Shown here piece by piece: positions 2,316 through 30,712 of a stretch of DNA of 64,000 bases; the stretch's first letter is position 1, and each line of letters opens with the position of its first letter. Both the position numbers and the translations under genes were made by a program. The stretch is from Alphaproteobacteria bacterium (GTDB lineage Bacteria; Pseudomonadota; Alphaproteobacteria; Rickettsiales; UBA8987): assembly GCA_030429625.1 (NCBI GenBank), contig JAUIFA010000004.1, positions 269,568 to 333,567 of the forward strand. Reading direction: 5' to 3'. The notes beneath the pieces were generated by a model, which did no database searches, was not told the origin of the DNA, and saw only the letters and a list, made by a program, of their open reading frames with translations.

Positions 2316-4215
2316 TAAAAATCAGCAATTGCCCCATTTGTTGCAACGTCAGATACATAAGGCAACAAATATTGAAGGCACAATAGATTATGAGCTGCTA
2401 CTTGAATTGGTGGCAAAGGCTTATGATGATTTTAACAAAGCACGTGAACGGCAGGAACGTGCTTTGTCTTTGATGTCTGAAGAAATGTCAGAGCAGAATC
2501 AGGAATTGGATAAACACCGCCAGAATTTGGAAGAAATGGTGGAGACGCGTACCAAAGAATTGGTAGAGGCAAAAGAACGGGCAGAATCGGCAGCAAAAGC
2601 CAAAACAGAGTTTTTGGCAAATATGAGCCATGAGATTCGTACACCGCTCAATGGGGTGTTGGGTGTTGCAGGTTTGCTTTCCGACACAAAACTGACGAAA
2701 GAACAGCAGAGTTGGGTAGAGATAATTCATAAATCCGGTGAGGCATTGTTAGAAATTATCAATGATATTCTTGATGTGTCCAAAATTGAAGCCGGTGAGC
2801 TTAAGCTAGAGCCGATCAATTTCAACTTATATTCGTCGATAGAAGATATCATGGATGTTGTGATGCTTCACGCTCAGGAAAAAGCCATTGAACTGCTTGT
2901 TGAGTTTGAACCAGGAATGCACGACTGTTATGTTGGCGATGTGGGCCGTGTACGTCAGATTATTCTTAACTTACTTAGTAATTCTATTAAATTTACACAG
3001 GAAGGCTATGTATTGCTACGTATTCATTCAAAAGAGATGGAAGAAAATAAAATACATTTGTTCTTTGAAGTGGAAGATACTGGGATTGGTATTCCAGAGG
3101 ATAAGCAGGATTACATTTTTAATAAATTTTCTCAGGCAGAAGAATCCACCACACGTAAATTTGGCGGTACGGGTCTTGGTCTGGCAATCTGTAAAACCTT
3201 GACCAATATGATGGGAGGATCCATCGGTGTCAGAAGTACGTTAGGAGAGGGATCCACATTCTATTTTGATATTATCCTACCGCGCGGCAAAAAAGCAGAT
3301 TCCCCTAAAGTAGAATTCCCAAACGTTGATTTGTCGGCGGTACGGGCATTAATTGTTGATGATCTTCCGGTTAATTGCTACATCCTTGCTCAATATGCTA
3401 TAAGCTGGAACATGGAGTGTGATATAGCGTCTTCGGCTAAAGAGGCGTTAAAACTGATAAAAAAAGCCGCGTTAGAAAACAAACCATACAATATTGCATT
3501 AATTGACAGACAGATGCCGCATATAAGTGGCCCCCAACTTGCAGAAAAAATCAAAAAGAATCCTGCATTAAAAAAGATGCCCCTGATTATGGTTACGTCT
3601 TCCGCATCAGGGGACATTGCGCCTCGAGAAGAGATTTTAAAGATGGGGTTTTTGGGGTTGATCATCAAACCGTATCACCCTTTAACACTAAAAAATATGA
3701 TTATGTACGTACTGGACGCAGCAAAAAGACACAAAGAAGATCAGCTTATTACCCGCAATGTTTTGTTGGAAATGGGCACATCCGGCAAACAAAAACAAAA
3801 GAAAACCCGGAAAATTTTCCCTGGAGTGCGTGCCTTGATCGCGGACGACATGAAGGTAAACATGATGCTGGTGGTCAACATTCTGAAAAAACGAGAATGT
3901 ATGGTGGATGCTGCATCAAACGGCAAAGAAGCCCTGAACATGTATAAAAAATCTAACTATGATATTGTCTTTATGGATTGTCACATGCCGGAAATGGATG
4001 GCTATGAGGCCACACAAGCCATTCGGGTATACGAAACAAAAGAGGCAAAAAAACATACGCCCGTCATAGCAATCACAGCAGATGCCATGAAAGGTAATGA
4101 AGAACGTTGTATACAAGCAGGTATGGACGACTACCTTAACAAGCCCATTAAGGAAACACAAATTGAGGGCATGATAGAAAAATGGGTACTGCCTAATATC
4201 ATAAAAAGAAAATAA
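2305..4215 (+). CDS. Hybrid sensor histidine kinase with two receiver domains
   Basis: A 636-residue soluble hybrid kinase. In order it has an N-terminal region with a predicted coiled coil (about residues 40-95), a HisKA domain with the H box [12 protein letters not shown] (His109), HATPase_c with DTGIGI and GGTGLGL, receiver 1 (Asp401 in ALIDRQMP) and receiver 2 (Asp558 in [12 protein letters not shown]). Without membrane segments or PAS domains, it probably senses through a partner, and the overlapping FIST gene is the obvious candidate. The protein is a paralogue of the truncated kinase at the window start. There is no HPt domain, so the output would be a phosphorelay through another protein. 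Confidence 0.95.
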
Positions 4216-25914: not shown

Positions 25915-27831
25915 TTATAGATTGTGTGGAATCCAGCGATTGCTGTGCTCGGTGGTATGGCGTAGACGGTTAGGGTAATATTTTTCTTCTTTTTCTCTAA
26001 CATCAAGCGGATAGTCAATGGCCGGGATATGGTAAGGGTGTGTGTTGAAGAGCAAGTCTTGTTCACCAAAAGCTTTTGCATTAAGCGCGCCTTTTTGTAA
26101 CCCATCTAAGGTACGGATTTTGTCCAGCGTAATCAACAGCCGCACCTTATCCTCTTCCAAGGCACACAATGTCATATCAATGGTTTGAGCAAATTGCTCG
26201 TTCATATTTTTTTCTATCAAACCAAGCTCAGTTAATTTATGTAAGAATGGGTGGCCACCAAGCTCTTTTGCCGCACATAAATCATTATATGTTTTTACAT
26301 CACACATATATAATTGTTCCACCATATATTGCTCACCTTTTTCACCTCCACGATCTTCCACGGTGAGACGGTCTACGTTCCAGTCACGTGCGGCATCGAG
26401 TTTGGAGCGGGCATAACCAATATGTTTCTCAATGGCAATATCCCAAGGCACCCCGCGCGCATTTTCTTCCTTGTTGGCACGTTTTTCCAATCGTCGTATG
26501 ACGGGATAGGAAATATCACCACGATCTTTCTCAATAATCAGCGGGGCGGATGCTGCGAGAATATTGGTGCGATATCCGGCCTTTTTAAAGCGGGATATAA
26601 TTTTATTATACTGACCTTTATATTCTACCCCGGAACCATCATAAAACAGATTATAGCCAAATTTAAGCGCGTGTTCCATAATTCGATTACGAATGGTTTT
26701 GGCAAACTGGGTCAAAGATTTATAATCGTCGTTATGGTGGCTGGCTTTTAGATAAAGCGGGTAAAGCTGGCTGTAGGTGCGTGCGTCGTCAAGAGAGGCG
26801 GTGACTAGTTCTTGGTCATTAAGCTCTTTTTTAGCAATGTCAAGCAGGCCACTTTTACCGCTGCCACTGCCACCCATGGTCATGTAGAACGAGGGAGTAT
26901 GTTTGGCTGCCACAACGTCTTTAAAAATGTCGTTGATAATGCTCTGTAAACGCGATTGAGGCACGAGGCGTAGGTAATCTCTGTCCAGATGCAATAGGGG
27001 TACAGTATCTCCACTGACATCAATTCCGTCCACATAATCAGGCTCTTCGTCCATAAGATTGCCGGAGAAAAGTTCCCTTGAAACGCAAAACCATGTTTCG
27101 TTATTTTTAAGATGGTATTCAATATCCTGTTGAATGGTTTCAAGCTTCACCAAACCACCATTGATTGCCACAAGATAGGGTGTTTCACCTTCACTTTTGT
27201 AGCTTAAGAAGCGTTCTTTGCCAACGGTGATACTGGCATCGTCCAGATCAGACCAAAGATCTTCTTCATCAAAATGTTTGGGATCATAATCGGGGTTTAG
27301 AGAGTGCTCAAACACTTCTATAAGTTTTTCAGAAGCATCAACTTCATGTGAGATTAACCTTATATCCTCACCGGTAAGGCGGCGAAAATCAATGCCGTAA
27401 GGGAAATGTTGAGGATAGTCCCTGCCCAAAATATGGAGGAAATAGCGCAAAGTTAGGCTGTTACCATAGGTAAAAACATTGGCTGCCAGAAAATGATAGC
27501 TAAATTCTGCTAAGAAATGTGATGCTGGCTTTTCTCCGTAGAGGTCATGTGCCAGAGTTTCGCAGGCTTTAAAGAATCGTTTGTTTGTCATCCTGTGACG
27601 CGGAGGCTGCATCGCAGAATCTGCGGGCACAGGATCCATGGATTCTGCGCTGTCGTTCCACTCCCCGCAGAATGACGGGTTCTCATCTGGATGGGTATAA
27701 GTAAATAATTCTGTGTGAATATAAGCAATAACTTCGACGATATTTTGCCGAGTGATGTGCGGCACCTCAAAGCGGGTTAACAGCGCACAGGCGATTTCTT
27801 TGCGGGAAAGTTTTTCAACAAAATGTACCAT
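25915..27831 (-). CDS. Large zeta-toxin-like kinase with in-frame palindromic element
   Basis: A 638-residue protein from MVHFVEK; a start 20 residues earlier inside ugd is also open. The C-terminal half has a P-loop MTMGGSGSGKSGLLD (Lys326), a following DDARTY segment, and YDGSGVEYKGQY, as in zeta-toxin/UDP-GlcNAc-kinase folds. The N-terminal half contains NVFTYGNSLTLRYFL, which faintly recalls a Fic motif without its catalytic His. About 30 residues near the N-terminus (PSFCG to HRMTN) come from the inserted double-hairpin element. There is no epsilon-like antitoxin gene next to it. The substrate is unknown. Confidence 0.72.
   Translation of the reverse strand: MVHFVEKLSRKEIACALLTRFEVPHITRQNIVEVIAYIHTELFTYTHPDENPSFCGEWNDSAESMDPVPADSAMQPPRHRMTNKRFFKACETLAHDLYGEKPASHFLAEFSYHFLAANVFTYGNSLTLRYFLHILGRDYPQHFPYGIDFRRLTGEDIRLISHEVDASEKLIEVFEHSLNPDYDPKHFDEEDLWSDLDDASITVGKERFLSYKSEGETPYLVAINGGLVKLETIQQDIEYHLKNNETWFCVSRELFSGNLMDEEPDYVDGIDVSGDTVPLLHLDRDYLRLVPQSRLQSIINDIFKDVVAAKHTPSFYMTMGGSGSGKSGLLDIAKKELNDQELVTASLDDARTYSQLYPLYLKASHHNDDYKSLTQFAKTIRNRIMEHALKFGYNLFYDGSGVEYKGQYNKIISRFKKAGYRTNILAASAPLIIEKDRGDISYPVIRRLEKRANKEENARGVPWDIAIEKHIGYARSKLDAARDWNVDRLTVEDRGGEKGEQYMVEQLYMCDVKTYNDLCAAKELGGHPFLHKLTELGLIEKNMNEQFAQTIDMTLCALEEDKVRLLITLDKIRTLDGLQKGALNAKAFGEQDLLFNTHPYHIPAIDYPLDVREKEEKYYPNRLRHTTEHSNRWIPHNL
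27587..27676. repeat. Double-hairpin palindromic element inside the kinase gene
   Basis: A 90-bp element with ends GTC and GAC. The first hairpin has arms ATCCTGTG/CACAGGAT, then the centre CCATGG, then a second hairpin with arms ATTCTGCG/CGCAGAAT. Loops are about 26 and 16 bases. The same arms in reverse order make the element at 30056. It is read in frame by the host gene on the minus strand, adding about 30 residues. Confidence 0.9.
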
Positions 27832-27832
27832 A

Positions 27833-29149
27833 TTATACGGGCTTTCTTCCGATGGAATGGTAGGCAATGCCGCGCCGTTGCACTCGGTCATGTGTGTAAA
27901 GGTTACGTAAGTCCACCAAAATGGGGGTTTTTAGTAAGGTAGTCACGTCATTAAGGAAGCCATTATCCGCAAATTCCTCCCATTCGGTAATAATCACCGC
28001 AGCATCTCCGCCCTTTAGTGCATCTTTGGCGCTGTCATGCCAGATAATTTCTTTCTGTGGCAACAGCGCTTTGGCTTGTTGCATGGCCTGCGGGTCATAG
28101 GCATTAATTTTAGCACCGTTCTTTATCAGCTCAGGAATGATATAGACCGAGGCGGATTCACGCATGTCGTCTGTATTGGCTTTAAACGCTAACCCTAAAA
28201 TCGCAAGATTCTTACCTTTCACATCGCCACCACAGGCCTGAATAATTTTGCTTGCCATAGCAATTTTACGTTGGTCATTGCTGCGGATGACCGCATCAAC
28301 AATGTTGGCATGACGGTTATAATCGTCCGACATTTTTCGCAAGGCCAGTGTGTCCTTAGGAAAGCATGAGCCCCCAAAACCTGGTCCGGGTTTGAGGTAA
28401 TTGGCGCCAATGCGATGGTCAATGCCCATGGCACGGGATAAGTCTTCAATGTTTGCGCCACTGGCCTCACAAATATCGGCAATTTCGTTGATAAAACCAA
28501 TCTTGGTTGCCAGATACGCATTGGCAGCGTATTTGGTCAGCTCGGCGGTTTTGATGTCAGTGTGAATGACAAACACATTACGGTCAGACAATGGTCGGTA
28601 AAGTGCTTCCATCACCGAACGTGCTTCAGAGGCTTCTGTGCCGACCAATACCCGATCAGGCTTTAAAAAATCCTCAATGGCGCAGCCTTCACGTAAGAAT
28701 TCTGGATTGGAGGCTACGTAAAATTTGAGTTTTGGATTTTCTTTGGAGATAATACTTTGAATTTGTTCACCTGTGCCCACTGGAACGGTGGATTTGGTTA
28801 CCACCACCGTCTCATCGTCAATGGTTGCTGCCAGCTCGCGCGCAACATTATGCACATAGGTTAAATCCGCCCCGCCATGGCCATCCGGAGGAGTGCCTAC
28901 CGCGATAAAAACGACTTCCGCGCCACTAACAGCATGCTTTAGATCCGTCGTAAAAGATAATCTGCTTGCTTCGACATTTTTCTTAATCAAAACATCAAGA
29001 CCGGGCTCAAAGATGGGAACTATATTATGATCCAGATCTTTAATTTTTTGTTTGTCTTTGTCGACACAGACAACGTCCAGACCAAGTTCAGCAAAACAGG
29101 TGCCTGAAACTAAACCCACATAACCCGTACCAATTACTGCAATTTTCAT
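27833..29149 (-). CDS. ugd: UDP-glucose 6-dehydrogenase
   Basis: A 438-residue enzyme that oxidises UDP-glucose to UDP-glucuronate for surface polysaccharides. It has the NAD motif GTGYVGLVSG, the catalytic-Cys motif GPGFGGSCFPKD, and LGLAFKANTDDMRES. The start MKIAV has AAGGAC six bases upstream; the open frame continues into a repeat before it. The kinase gene follows after one base if MVHF is its start. Confidence 0.96.
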   Translation of the reverse strand: MKIAVIGTGYVGLVSGTCFAELGLDVVCVDKDKQKIKDLDHNIVPIFEPGLDVLIKKNVEASRLSFTTDLKHAVSGAEVVFIAVGTPPDGHGGADLTYVHNVARELAATIDDETVVVTKSTVPVGTGEQIQSIISKENPKLKFYVASNPEFLREGCAIEDFLKPDRVLVGTEASEARSVMEALYRPLSDRNVFVIHTDIKTAELTKYAANAYLATKIGFINEIADICEASGANIEDLSRAMGIDHRIGANYLKPGPGFGGSCFPKDTLALRKMSDDYNRHANIVDAVIRSNDQRKIAMASKIIQACGGDVKGKNLAILGLAFKANTDDMRESASVYIIPELIKNGAKINAYDPQAMQQAKALLPQKEIIWHDSAKDALKGGDAAVIITEWEEFADNGFLNDVTTLLKTPILVDLRNLYTHDRVQRRGIAYHSIGRKPV

Positions 29150-29157
29150 AGATAGTC

Positions 29158-29267
29158 CTTTTATACGTTCATGCGCCACCAAGGCTGCGCTCCTACTTAG
29201 TCGCTAGTCCTTACTAACGTTCGTCCAACCCTTTTACGTTCATGCGCCGCTAAAGCTGCGCTCTCAT
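29158..29267. repeat. Two direct copies of a ~37-bp repeat
   Basis: Copy 1 at about 29158-29195 and copy 2 at about 29232-29267 share ACGTTCATGCGCC, then AAGCTGCGCT-like sequence, with few differences. They fill most of the gap between trmFO and ugd. They do not match the double-hairpin element. They may be remnants of a dispersed intergenic repeat family. Confidence 0.65.
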
Positions 29268-29269
29268 TT

Positions 29270-30712
29270 CTACTCCATTGCCAGCCATTTGTCTATATCG
29301 TCAAGGGCACGGCGGCAATAAGCCTCTTTACGCTCTTTCTTTTTGGTACGCTGTTCCAGAGGTGGGAACAGGCCGAAATTCACATTCATTGGCTGGAATG
29401 ATTTTTGCTCTTCGCCGATCTGGTCATAATTTTTATGGCCGATGGTAATGTGTGCCATAAGCGCGCCTATGGCTGTGGTGTGCGGTGGCGGGCTAATAGT
29501 GTTGCCTAGAATCTCATCGGCAGCAAAGCGACCGGTCAATAATCCCATGGCCGCGCTTTCTACATAACCCTCCACACCGGAAACCTGCCCTGCCAGAAAC
29601 ACATGGGGTGCTTTCTTGAAATGCAAATGTTCGTCCAGCACTTTGGGACTGTTGACATAAGTGTTGCGGTGAATTCCGCCAAGGCGGGCGAATTCAGCCT
29701 TTTCTAGACCCGGAATAGTGCGGAAGATGCGCTCTTGTTCACCGTATTTTAGTTTGGTCTGAAAGCCCACTATGTTATAAAGTGTGCCCAGTTGGTTATC
29801 TTGACGTAGCTGCACCACAGCAAACGGCTTTTCGCTGCTGTGCGGGTTGGTTAGCCCCACAGGTTTCATTGGGCCGTAAGCCAGCGTATCTTTGCCGCGT
29901 TCGGCCATCACCTCAATGGGCAGGCAAGCATCAAAATAAGGGGTGTTTTTTTCCCATTCTTTAAACTCAGTATGCTGACCGGTAATCAGCGCCTCCACAA
30001 AGGTGTAATATTGTTCTTTATCCATCGGACAGTTGATGTAATCGCCACAGCTCTTGTCATTCTGCGAATCATGTAATGATTGCGCAGAATCCATGGATCC
30101 TGTGCTGTTTCCTTGCGTCGACCCACAGGATGACGTGGTGGACGAATTTTTATCATAACGGGACTGATACCATGCTTTGGAAAAATCAATTGAGTCTTTA
30201 TGGACAATGGGAGCAATAGCATCAAAAAAGGCCAGATGTTCCTGACCGGAAATTTCCATAATGGCCTGAGACAATTTTGAGGAGGTCAGCGGGCCGGTAG
30301 CAATGATGGAGATTCCCCATTCTTCAGGTGGAATCTGAGAGACTTCTTCTCGAACCACTGTGATGTTGGGATGGTCATAAATAGCCTTCTGTACTGCGTT
30401 GGAGAACGCTTCCCGATCCATCGCCAACGCGCCGCCAGCAGGGACGGAATGTGCGTCGGCGCAGGACAAAATCAAAGAGCTACAGCGACGCATTTCTTCG
30501 TGCAAACAGCCAATGGCACTGCGCAGATAATTGTTGTCACGAAAGGAGTTGGAGCAGACCAGCTCGGCCAGCATATCGGTTTGGTGGGCGGGAGTCAGAC
30601 TGCTTCCGTGGCGCATTTCGTGGATCACCACATTAATGTTTTTTTCAGCCGCCTGCCAGGCAGCCTCACAACCGGCTAGCCCACCGCCTATGATGTGTAA
30701 CGATTTGCTCAT
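29270..30712 (-). CDS. trmFO: Folate-dependent tRNA (uracil-54) methyltransferase with in-frame element
   Basis: A 480-residue flavoprotein that makes ribothymidine-54 in tRNA with methylene-tetrahydrofolate. It has the FAD motif [11 protein letters not shown], the SNSFRDNN segment, [13 protein letters not shown] and [18 protein letters not shown]. The usual family length is nearer 440-450. The excess is a Ser-rich stretch between SRYDK and DYINCP that is encoded by the double-hairpin element at 30056. It lies in what should be a surface loop, so the enzyme may still work. The start overlaps the stop of the upstream phosphatase gene. Confidence 0.95.
30056..30134. repeat. Double-hairpin palindromic element inside trmFO
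   Basis: A 79-bp element, opposite in orientation to the copy at 27587. The first hairpin has arms ATTCTGCG/CGCAGAAT around a 16-base loop that itself contains AATCAT/ATGATT. The centre is CCATGG. The second hairpin has arms ATCCTGTG/CACAGGAT around a 19-base loop. Outer ends are GTC and GAC. It is translated in frame as about 27 residues including TSSCGS and GSMDSAQS. Confidence 0.92.

Follow-up and report, generated by a model that had tools for sequence, protein, structure and literature searches.

In this study, we show that the trmFO gene in the window, that is, the whole stretch of 64,000 nucleotides that was analysed, carries a 79-bp double hairpin that recurs elsewhere in the same genome and is absent from the orthologous genes compared here. 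By its architecture, the element is a head-to-head dimer of CGTC-tagged REP-like units. We consider it very probable that a CGTC-type REP heterodimer landed in trmFO, that it is translated as a disordered loop, and that insertions of this sort are filtered at the level of the protein.

The element in trmFO

The element occupies exactly positions 30056-30134 and has the ends GTCAT...ATGAC (Table 1). The flanking bases, T at 30055 and G at 30135, complete a TGTC and a CGTC tag that point outward, and on the coding (minus) strand the order is CGTC tag, hairpin A, CCATGG, hairpin B, GACA. A single-stranded DNA fold of the element and its flanks (82 nt) reaches -17.5 kcal/mol compared with -9.2 (sd 2.0) for shuffled sequences (z -4.2; none of 200 shuffles as good) and shows the two adjacent hairpins around CCATGG that the initial annotation had described at these coordinates. 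Folded as RNA, the element gives a z of -3.15, with a pairing unlike the single-stranded DNA form.

Table 1. Coordinates of the trmFO element, its parts, its host gene and a second copy in the window
Feature	Position	Strand	Basis
Host gene trmFO, 480 aa, frame uninterrupted by the element	29270..30712	-	NCBIfam NF003739, TIGR00137
Double-hairpin element (head-to-head CGTC-tagged REP-like units) in trmFO	30056..30134	-	sequence, blastn, covariance model, folding
TGTC tag, outer end of unit B	30055..30058	+	sequence
Hairpin B, ATTCTGCG/CGCAGAAT with inner tip stem AATCAT/ATGATT	30059..30090	-	folding
CCATGG, two CCA unit tails face to face, zero spacer	30091..30096	-	sequence
Hairpin A, 8-bp stem ATCCTGTG/CACAGGAT, 19-nt loop	30097..30131	-	folding
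CGTC tag, outer end of unit A	30132..30135	-	sequence
Second family copy, in the 658-aa ORF 25915-27891 (-; Pfam Zeta_toxin)	27587..27676	+	covariance model, in frame

Among eight aligned copies, 96.9% of the cells in both helices pair. Both-side changes occur in 9 cells compared with 2.9 in shuffles, and the covariation score is 0.170 compared with 0.064 (0 of 500 shuffles in either case). For two weaker measures, 13 and 47 of the 500 shuffles do as well. Every both-side change lies in hairpin B; hairpin A is nearly invariant in its outer stem. Because the structure was derived from the same eight-copy alignment, this covariation is support and not proof. The loops also contain inner stems of their own: in the 31 hairpin A loops of the genome the summed stem is 158 compared with 108.6 in shuffles (maximum of 1000 shuffles, 123), and in the 29 hairpin B loops it is 104 compared with 70.5 (largest shuffle, 80). 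The tip stems AATTTC/GAAATT, AACGC/GCGTT, ATTACC/GGTAAT and AATGAC/GTCATT differ in sequence and keep their complementarity; a good tip stem is missing in some copies, including hairpin A of trmFO, whose inner tip stem is poor.

The window TrmFO has 35 residues between SRYDK and DYINCP, compared with 4-11 in 53 of the 53 other rows of an alignment of 54, which consists mostly of alphaproteobacterial records with a few MAGs labelled otherwise. A survey by motif covered 94 TrmFO loci, the window's own among them. The spacing was again 4-11 in all 82 others found by the motif; of the 11 loci without a motif match, nine are in the alignment with a spacing of 4-8, one (L179) is without such an insert and one (L021) is a fragment. 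The loop at the insertion site has 4 or 8 residues in 80 of these 82 proteins, and relative to the common lengths of 8 and 4 the window protein is longer by 27 or 31 residues. The initial annotation had held that the insert adds about 27 residues without a stop and that trmFO elsewhere lacks it; both claims agree with these results, and the same residues were not present in the other TrmFOs. Moreover, the Thermus TrmFO 3g5q aligns straight over the insertion site with no insert. The best named matches of the protein have at most 62% identity in their best segment and are mostly labelled as other Alphaproteobacteria, a list from which the organism's own or very near records were perhaps omitted.

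The element itself encodes 26 stop-free residues, rich in Ser, Gly, Gln and Asp. In an AlphaFold model built on the 54-row alignment (mean pLDDT 81.7), residues 188-222, the insert, make up the longest stretch with a pLDDT below 50, and the insert is predicted to be a disordered loop.

The window contains further repeats. Between trmFO and the neighbouring ORF 27833-29182, presumably a UDP-glucose dehydrogenase, two 32-nt direct repeats that are 88% alike (TTATACGTTCATGCGCCACCAAGGCTGCGCTC) lie within 29161-29263, and they are a different repeat from the double hairpin. A 236-nt direct repeat, 75% identical, is found at 14-249 and 3046-3281.

Copies in the genome and among relatives

A blastn search with the element found 14 places in its own genome, itself included. 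A covariance model built from eight copies of this 1.84-Mb genome gave 66 rows at E≤1 with both strands counted; these collapse into 37 entries at about 36 places, two entries overlapping at C5:363523-363649. Complete head-to-head pairs make up 31 of the 37, as classed by eye and with a search model that, being built from pairs, favours them. Ten entries lie within ORFs and 27 outside; a lack of other copies in the genome, which the initial annotation had named as a refutation, was thus not observed. The ten host ORFs are valS, tgt, alaS, ileS, pheT, trmFO, acsA, ispG, a zeta-domain protein and a glycosyltransferase-like protein, eight being named by NCBIfam above cut-off, one by Pfam Zeta_toxin and one by Pfam PMT_2. 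The ispG copy is a single hairpin at the C-terminal end. The copy in the Zeta_toxin ORF lies 2.4 kb from that in trmFO, in an orientation opposite to its host, and encodes a different peptide, SFCGEWNDSAESMDPVPADS...HRM. Outside genes, 15 of the 27 copies are located between unidirectional ORFs, 11 between convergent and none between divergent ones, and one overlaps a 134-aa ORF.

In a sample of the order, which comprises at least 29 families, 24 of 262 genomes (own included) match the model at E≤0.001 when the best 18 candidates per genome are scored, and 15 of the 24 also reach E≤1e-6. With the best 12 candidates scored in a class sample of 385, three genomes match at E≤1e-6, namely the own genome, one of the same order (G028) and one of another order; as the model comes from own copies, it favours near relatives. 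We fetched 84 places among the matches listed, from 11 genomes. Spanning ORFs of at least 150 aa contain 28 of these copies, and 20 were kept. Eight loci (L211, L212, L226, L227, L240, L251, L258 and L271) were set aside as hosts, either for want of a family model or because the element precedes the modelled protein. By family model, 13 of the kept hosts are above the curated cut-off (uvrC, nrdJ, rsmG, dxs, ilvD, tsaD, ftsY, der, leuS in two copies, thiC, ilvB and, by Pfam, an RND transporter) and seven, mostly fragments cut by contig ends, are below it (pcrA/uvrD, a gltB-like gene, valS, mfd, pheT, a heptosyltransferase and rimI); for pheT of G124 and rimI of G137, the match to the model is confined to the portion behind the insert. 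The PheT insertions of G000 and G124 are at different places in the protein, as far as the flanks show. In total, 30 gene-internal copies (10 own and 20 in relatives) from nine genomes were kept, and related repeats appear to be read through in over two dozen further genes across this alphaproteobacterial group.

As to how the copies move, the element had initially been called self-inserting. An element of 79 bp has no room for a transposase gene, and searches that covered the Y1 transposase and reverse transcriptase classes yielded no consistent mobilising enzyme: Y1_Tnp had no match in the own genome (8 of 14 controls were positive) and was present in 3 and absent in 7 of 10 element-bearing relatives, and RVT_1 had no match in any of 11 genomes, the own genome among them. 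With neither enzyme found in the own genome, self-insertion is unsupported. We infer that an ssDNA-handling enzyme acting in trans, or template switching at hairpins, has spread the copies, and not a transposase encoded by the element. To look for target-site duplications, 12 insertions from three genomes (G102, G086 and G116) were set beside the corresponding sites of genus- or family-mates; the trigger-factor insertion, one of the 12, had no ortholog over the site. The orthologous loops differ in length and sequence, and some carry other repeats; no target-site duplication was discernible among loops so diverged, in which one may be hidden.

The ValRS loop before the IIIGTTRPE strand holds five distinct palindromic pairs in five genomes. 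In G000 it is a window-type element, in G072 a CCTGCGG-type pair, in G004 a CHSERSEES...QDD pair, in G002 a TTGCGAGG-type pair (NSSLRG...ARND) around which the loop is expanded further, and in G028 a VILNEAEGG...QDD pair. For each insert, at least 199 of 200 shuffles fold less well as DNA; the inserts of G000 and G072 form two adjacent hairpins and those of G004, G002 and G028 one long hairpin. Pairwise scores show kinship between the inserts of G000 and G072 (z 6.2, same orientation) and between those of G004 and G028 (z 9.6, opposite orientations), and that of G002 stands apart from the other four. These two kinships speak against five unrelated kinds; the comparison indicates no fewer than three kinds, and at least four separate insertions should those of G000 and G072 count as one. 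The inserts of G000 and G072 may be of common descent, but a single origin would imply that the insert was lost from family mates, among them G003 and G006, where the loop is empty. Among the matches listed, ValRS was found in at least 28 relatives, three of which (G002, G004 and G028) have at least 20 extra residues at the site; since G000 and G072 entered through the element search, the five genomes are not a rate. In LeuRS of G086, the element lies directly before the TTRPD motif, at a site that we take to correspond to the ValRS loop.

Other repeats also occur in loops of this sort. In a UvrD/PcrA-like helicase of G028 (L321), a different repeat (CGTCATTGCGAGGA..., NSSLRGGNADVAIQ...ARND) occupies the loop that holds the element in G102, of the same genus. 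In G001 (L358), a short repeat enlarges the Tgt loop that carries the element in G000. This locus, leuS of G160 (L276) and a gltB-like gene of G079 (L294) have loops expanded by apparent short tandem repeats (SSEPQNSRIQNF..., QSAECRVQG and SRMPDAGCQE) where other genomes carry hairpin repeats. Hairpin kinds besides that of the window include CTGAGCGAAG and TTGCGAGG.

It might be argued that selection has kept the insert as a functional extension of TrmFO and the other hosts, with a common role such as that of a docking or regulatory peptide, since like peptides (SSCG...STGSMDSAQ...SQND) are found in six own proteins, all of them tRNA-related. We regard this as highly unlikely. The likeness of the peptides follows from the repeat itself, the same family is also present between genes, the stretch is predicted to be disordered, and the one ValRS loop has unlike peptides, derived from other repeats, in other genomes.

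Frame use and a proposed filter at the protein level

The 30 genic copies were each translated in six frames. The frames used are of the SSCG/SFCG type in 15 copies and HPxx-like in 15, and phase 1 and phase 2 are used in 15 copies each. The VIL frame is open in 13 of the 30 and used in none, where 6.1 would be expected if open frames were taken at random. The mean GRAVY of used frames is -0.84 compared with -0.53 for a random open frame (p 1.5e-4, 30 copies) and their share of disorder-promoting residues is higher (p 5e-5), in a test that covers survivors only, that is, copies with an open host ORF, and that counts copies related by descent separately. In ValRS of G028 another palindromic pair is read in the VIL frame, and two small ORFs that were set aside (C11:21351 and L227) use this frame as well; it is therefore avoided and not forbidden.

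The genic and intergenic dimers of the own genome also differ from each other. Genic dimers have 3.2 open frames (n=9) compared with 1.3 in intergenic ones (n=22; p 4.5e-5), and a hydrophilic frame is open in phase 1 or 2 of all 9 genic dimers and of none of the 22 intergenic ones, by a GRAVY cut of -0.5 that, unlike the open-frame count, was picked after the data had been seen. The compact CCATGG-type spacer, classed by eye, is found in 7 of 9 genic compared with 2 of 22 intergenic dimers (Fisher p 4e-4). The bias of genic copies in frame and composition fits a survivorship filter.

It is possible to argue that the element is not translated at all, being skipped by translational bypassing or removed from the mRNA. 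The coding strand can adopt a stable structure in both the single-stranded DNA and the RNA folds, and bypassing of palindromic inserts is reported for mitochondria of the yeast Magnusiomyces capitatus, according to PMC6649704. Because the 30 copies were chosen by their open ORF, the fact that all are in frame is no argument against skipping. However, skipping needs neither stop-free nor hydrophilic frames, yet the frame choice of the 30 copies is biased and open frames are more numerous in own genic than in own intergenic dimers, and we hold it to be most improbable.

We therefore favour translation followed by filtering, and propose the following course of events. A non-autonomous CGTC-type REP heterodimer, dispersed in the genome and in the order, would have inserted into trmFO at a loop that already varied in length, with 4 or 8 residues in most other TrmFOs. 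The element would be translated and not skipped, giving the Ser/Gly/Gln/Asp-rich stretch, and its extrusion as a disordered loop would allow TrmFO to keep working; the extended proteins are presumably made and active. Purifying selection would retain in-frame insertions in permissive loops with a hydrophilic frame, and insertions that fail this filter of frame, loop and hydrophilicity would survive between genes. New copies may arise in trans or at hairpins during template switching.

Relation to known repeats and significance

CGTC-tagged REPs were described, chiefly from alphaproteobacteria, by Di Nocera, De Gregorio and Rocco (2013, PMC3733652). In that description, the units have an unpaired outer tag (CGTC, or TGTC/CCTC), a stem of 8-9 bp starting with AT, a loop of 4-5 bp (other lengths being given for Bradyrhizobium, K. 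olearia and M. prima), and a short unpaired tail with the consensus CCA; head-to-head dimers predominate, no transposase is associated, and some copies are intragenic, with tRNA synthetases among the hosts. The window element has the CGTC and TGTC outer tags (30135-30132 on the minus strand and 30055-30058 on the plus strand), 8-bp stems starting with AT, and CCA tails in CCATGG. The own copies are mostly head-to-head heterodimers, have no dedicated transposase of the Y1_Tnp class in the own genome or in 7 of 10 element-bearing relatives, and resemble the described repeats in their placement between unidirectional and convergent genes and in some genes, including those of tRNA synthetases. Unlike the described repeats, they have long loops of 13-21 nt (31 A and 29 B), mostly with inner stems. 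Their zero-spacer CCATGG form is mostly in genes, and may or may not coincide with one of the four families of that study. What is new relative to the known CGTC REPs is the long loop tips with covarying stems, the lineage, and the proposed filtering at the protein level.

The comparison with Rickettsia palindromic elements (RPE; Ogata et al., 2000, 2002, as described in PMC10969869, PMC6649704 and PMC3733652) had already been drawn in the initial annotation, and the likeness in behaviour holds: the repeats are palindromic and dispersed, and open frames and family models point to in-frame insertion in unrelated protein genes. In contrast to RPE of about 150 bp, compared here by description, the gene-internal pairs are 65-92 bp long and probably belong to another lineage. 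That the genome does not look like that of a Rickettsia, as was also noted, fits its size and the number of families in the order sample. The description of a dispersed palindromic element with an open frame is upheld, and is refined here to a head-to-head dimer of CGTC-tagged REP-type units. A true Rickettsia element acquired from Rickettsiales is scarcely credible: it would show the same behaviour, and RPE-4 and RPE-6 are filed among the CGTC REPs in PMC3733652, but 24 of the 262 genomes sampled from the order match the covariance model (E≤0.001), as against only 3 of 385 in the class sample (E≤1e-6; Rickettsia perhaps absent), with a model that, coming from own copies, favours near relatives.

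Other known systems are more distant. GTAG REPs mobilised by RAYT transposases, as described in PMC3733652, are likewise short, non-autonomous paired hairpins; the window element differs by its CGTC/TGTC tags, has neither the GTAG tag nor a RAYT gene, and Y1_Tnp is missing from the own genome and from 7 of 10 element-bearing relatives. The coding palindromes of Nematomorpha mitochondria also form hairpins within translated genes, but according to PMC6649704 they are long perfect inverted repeats and not one dispersed architecture, unlike the window family.

In the open-access literature, we found no paper on elements of this order or on re-use of the ValRS loop, and the present findings extend protein-coding palindromes to an alphaproteobacterial order for which no report was found there. 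They also make the tolerance of such repeats testable, as there are many insertions, some in the same enzyme loop and by different repeats, and provide a natural catalogue of core-enzyme loops that accept 20-30 extra residues. A bolder and rather doubtful reading, for which we offer the ValRS loop in five genomes, the like place in LeuRS, and the hydrophilic open frames in 9 of 9 as opposed to 0 of 22 dimers, is that several kinds of paired hairpin are protein-compatible parasites that recolonise the same core-enzyme loops and are tuned for translation. If this were true, such repeats would be a source of new disordered protein loops.
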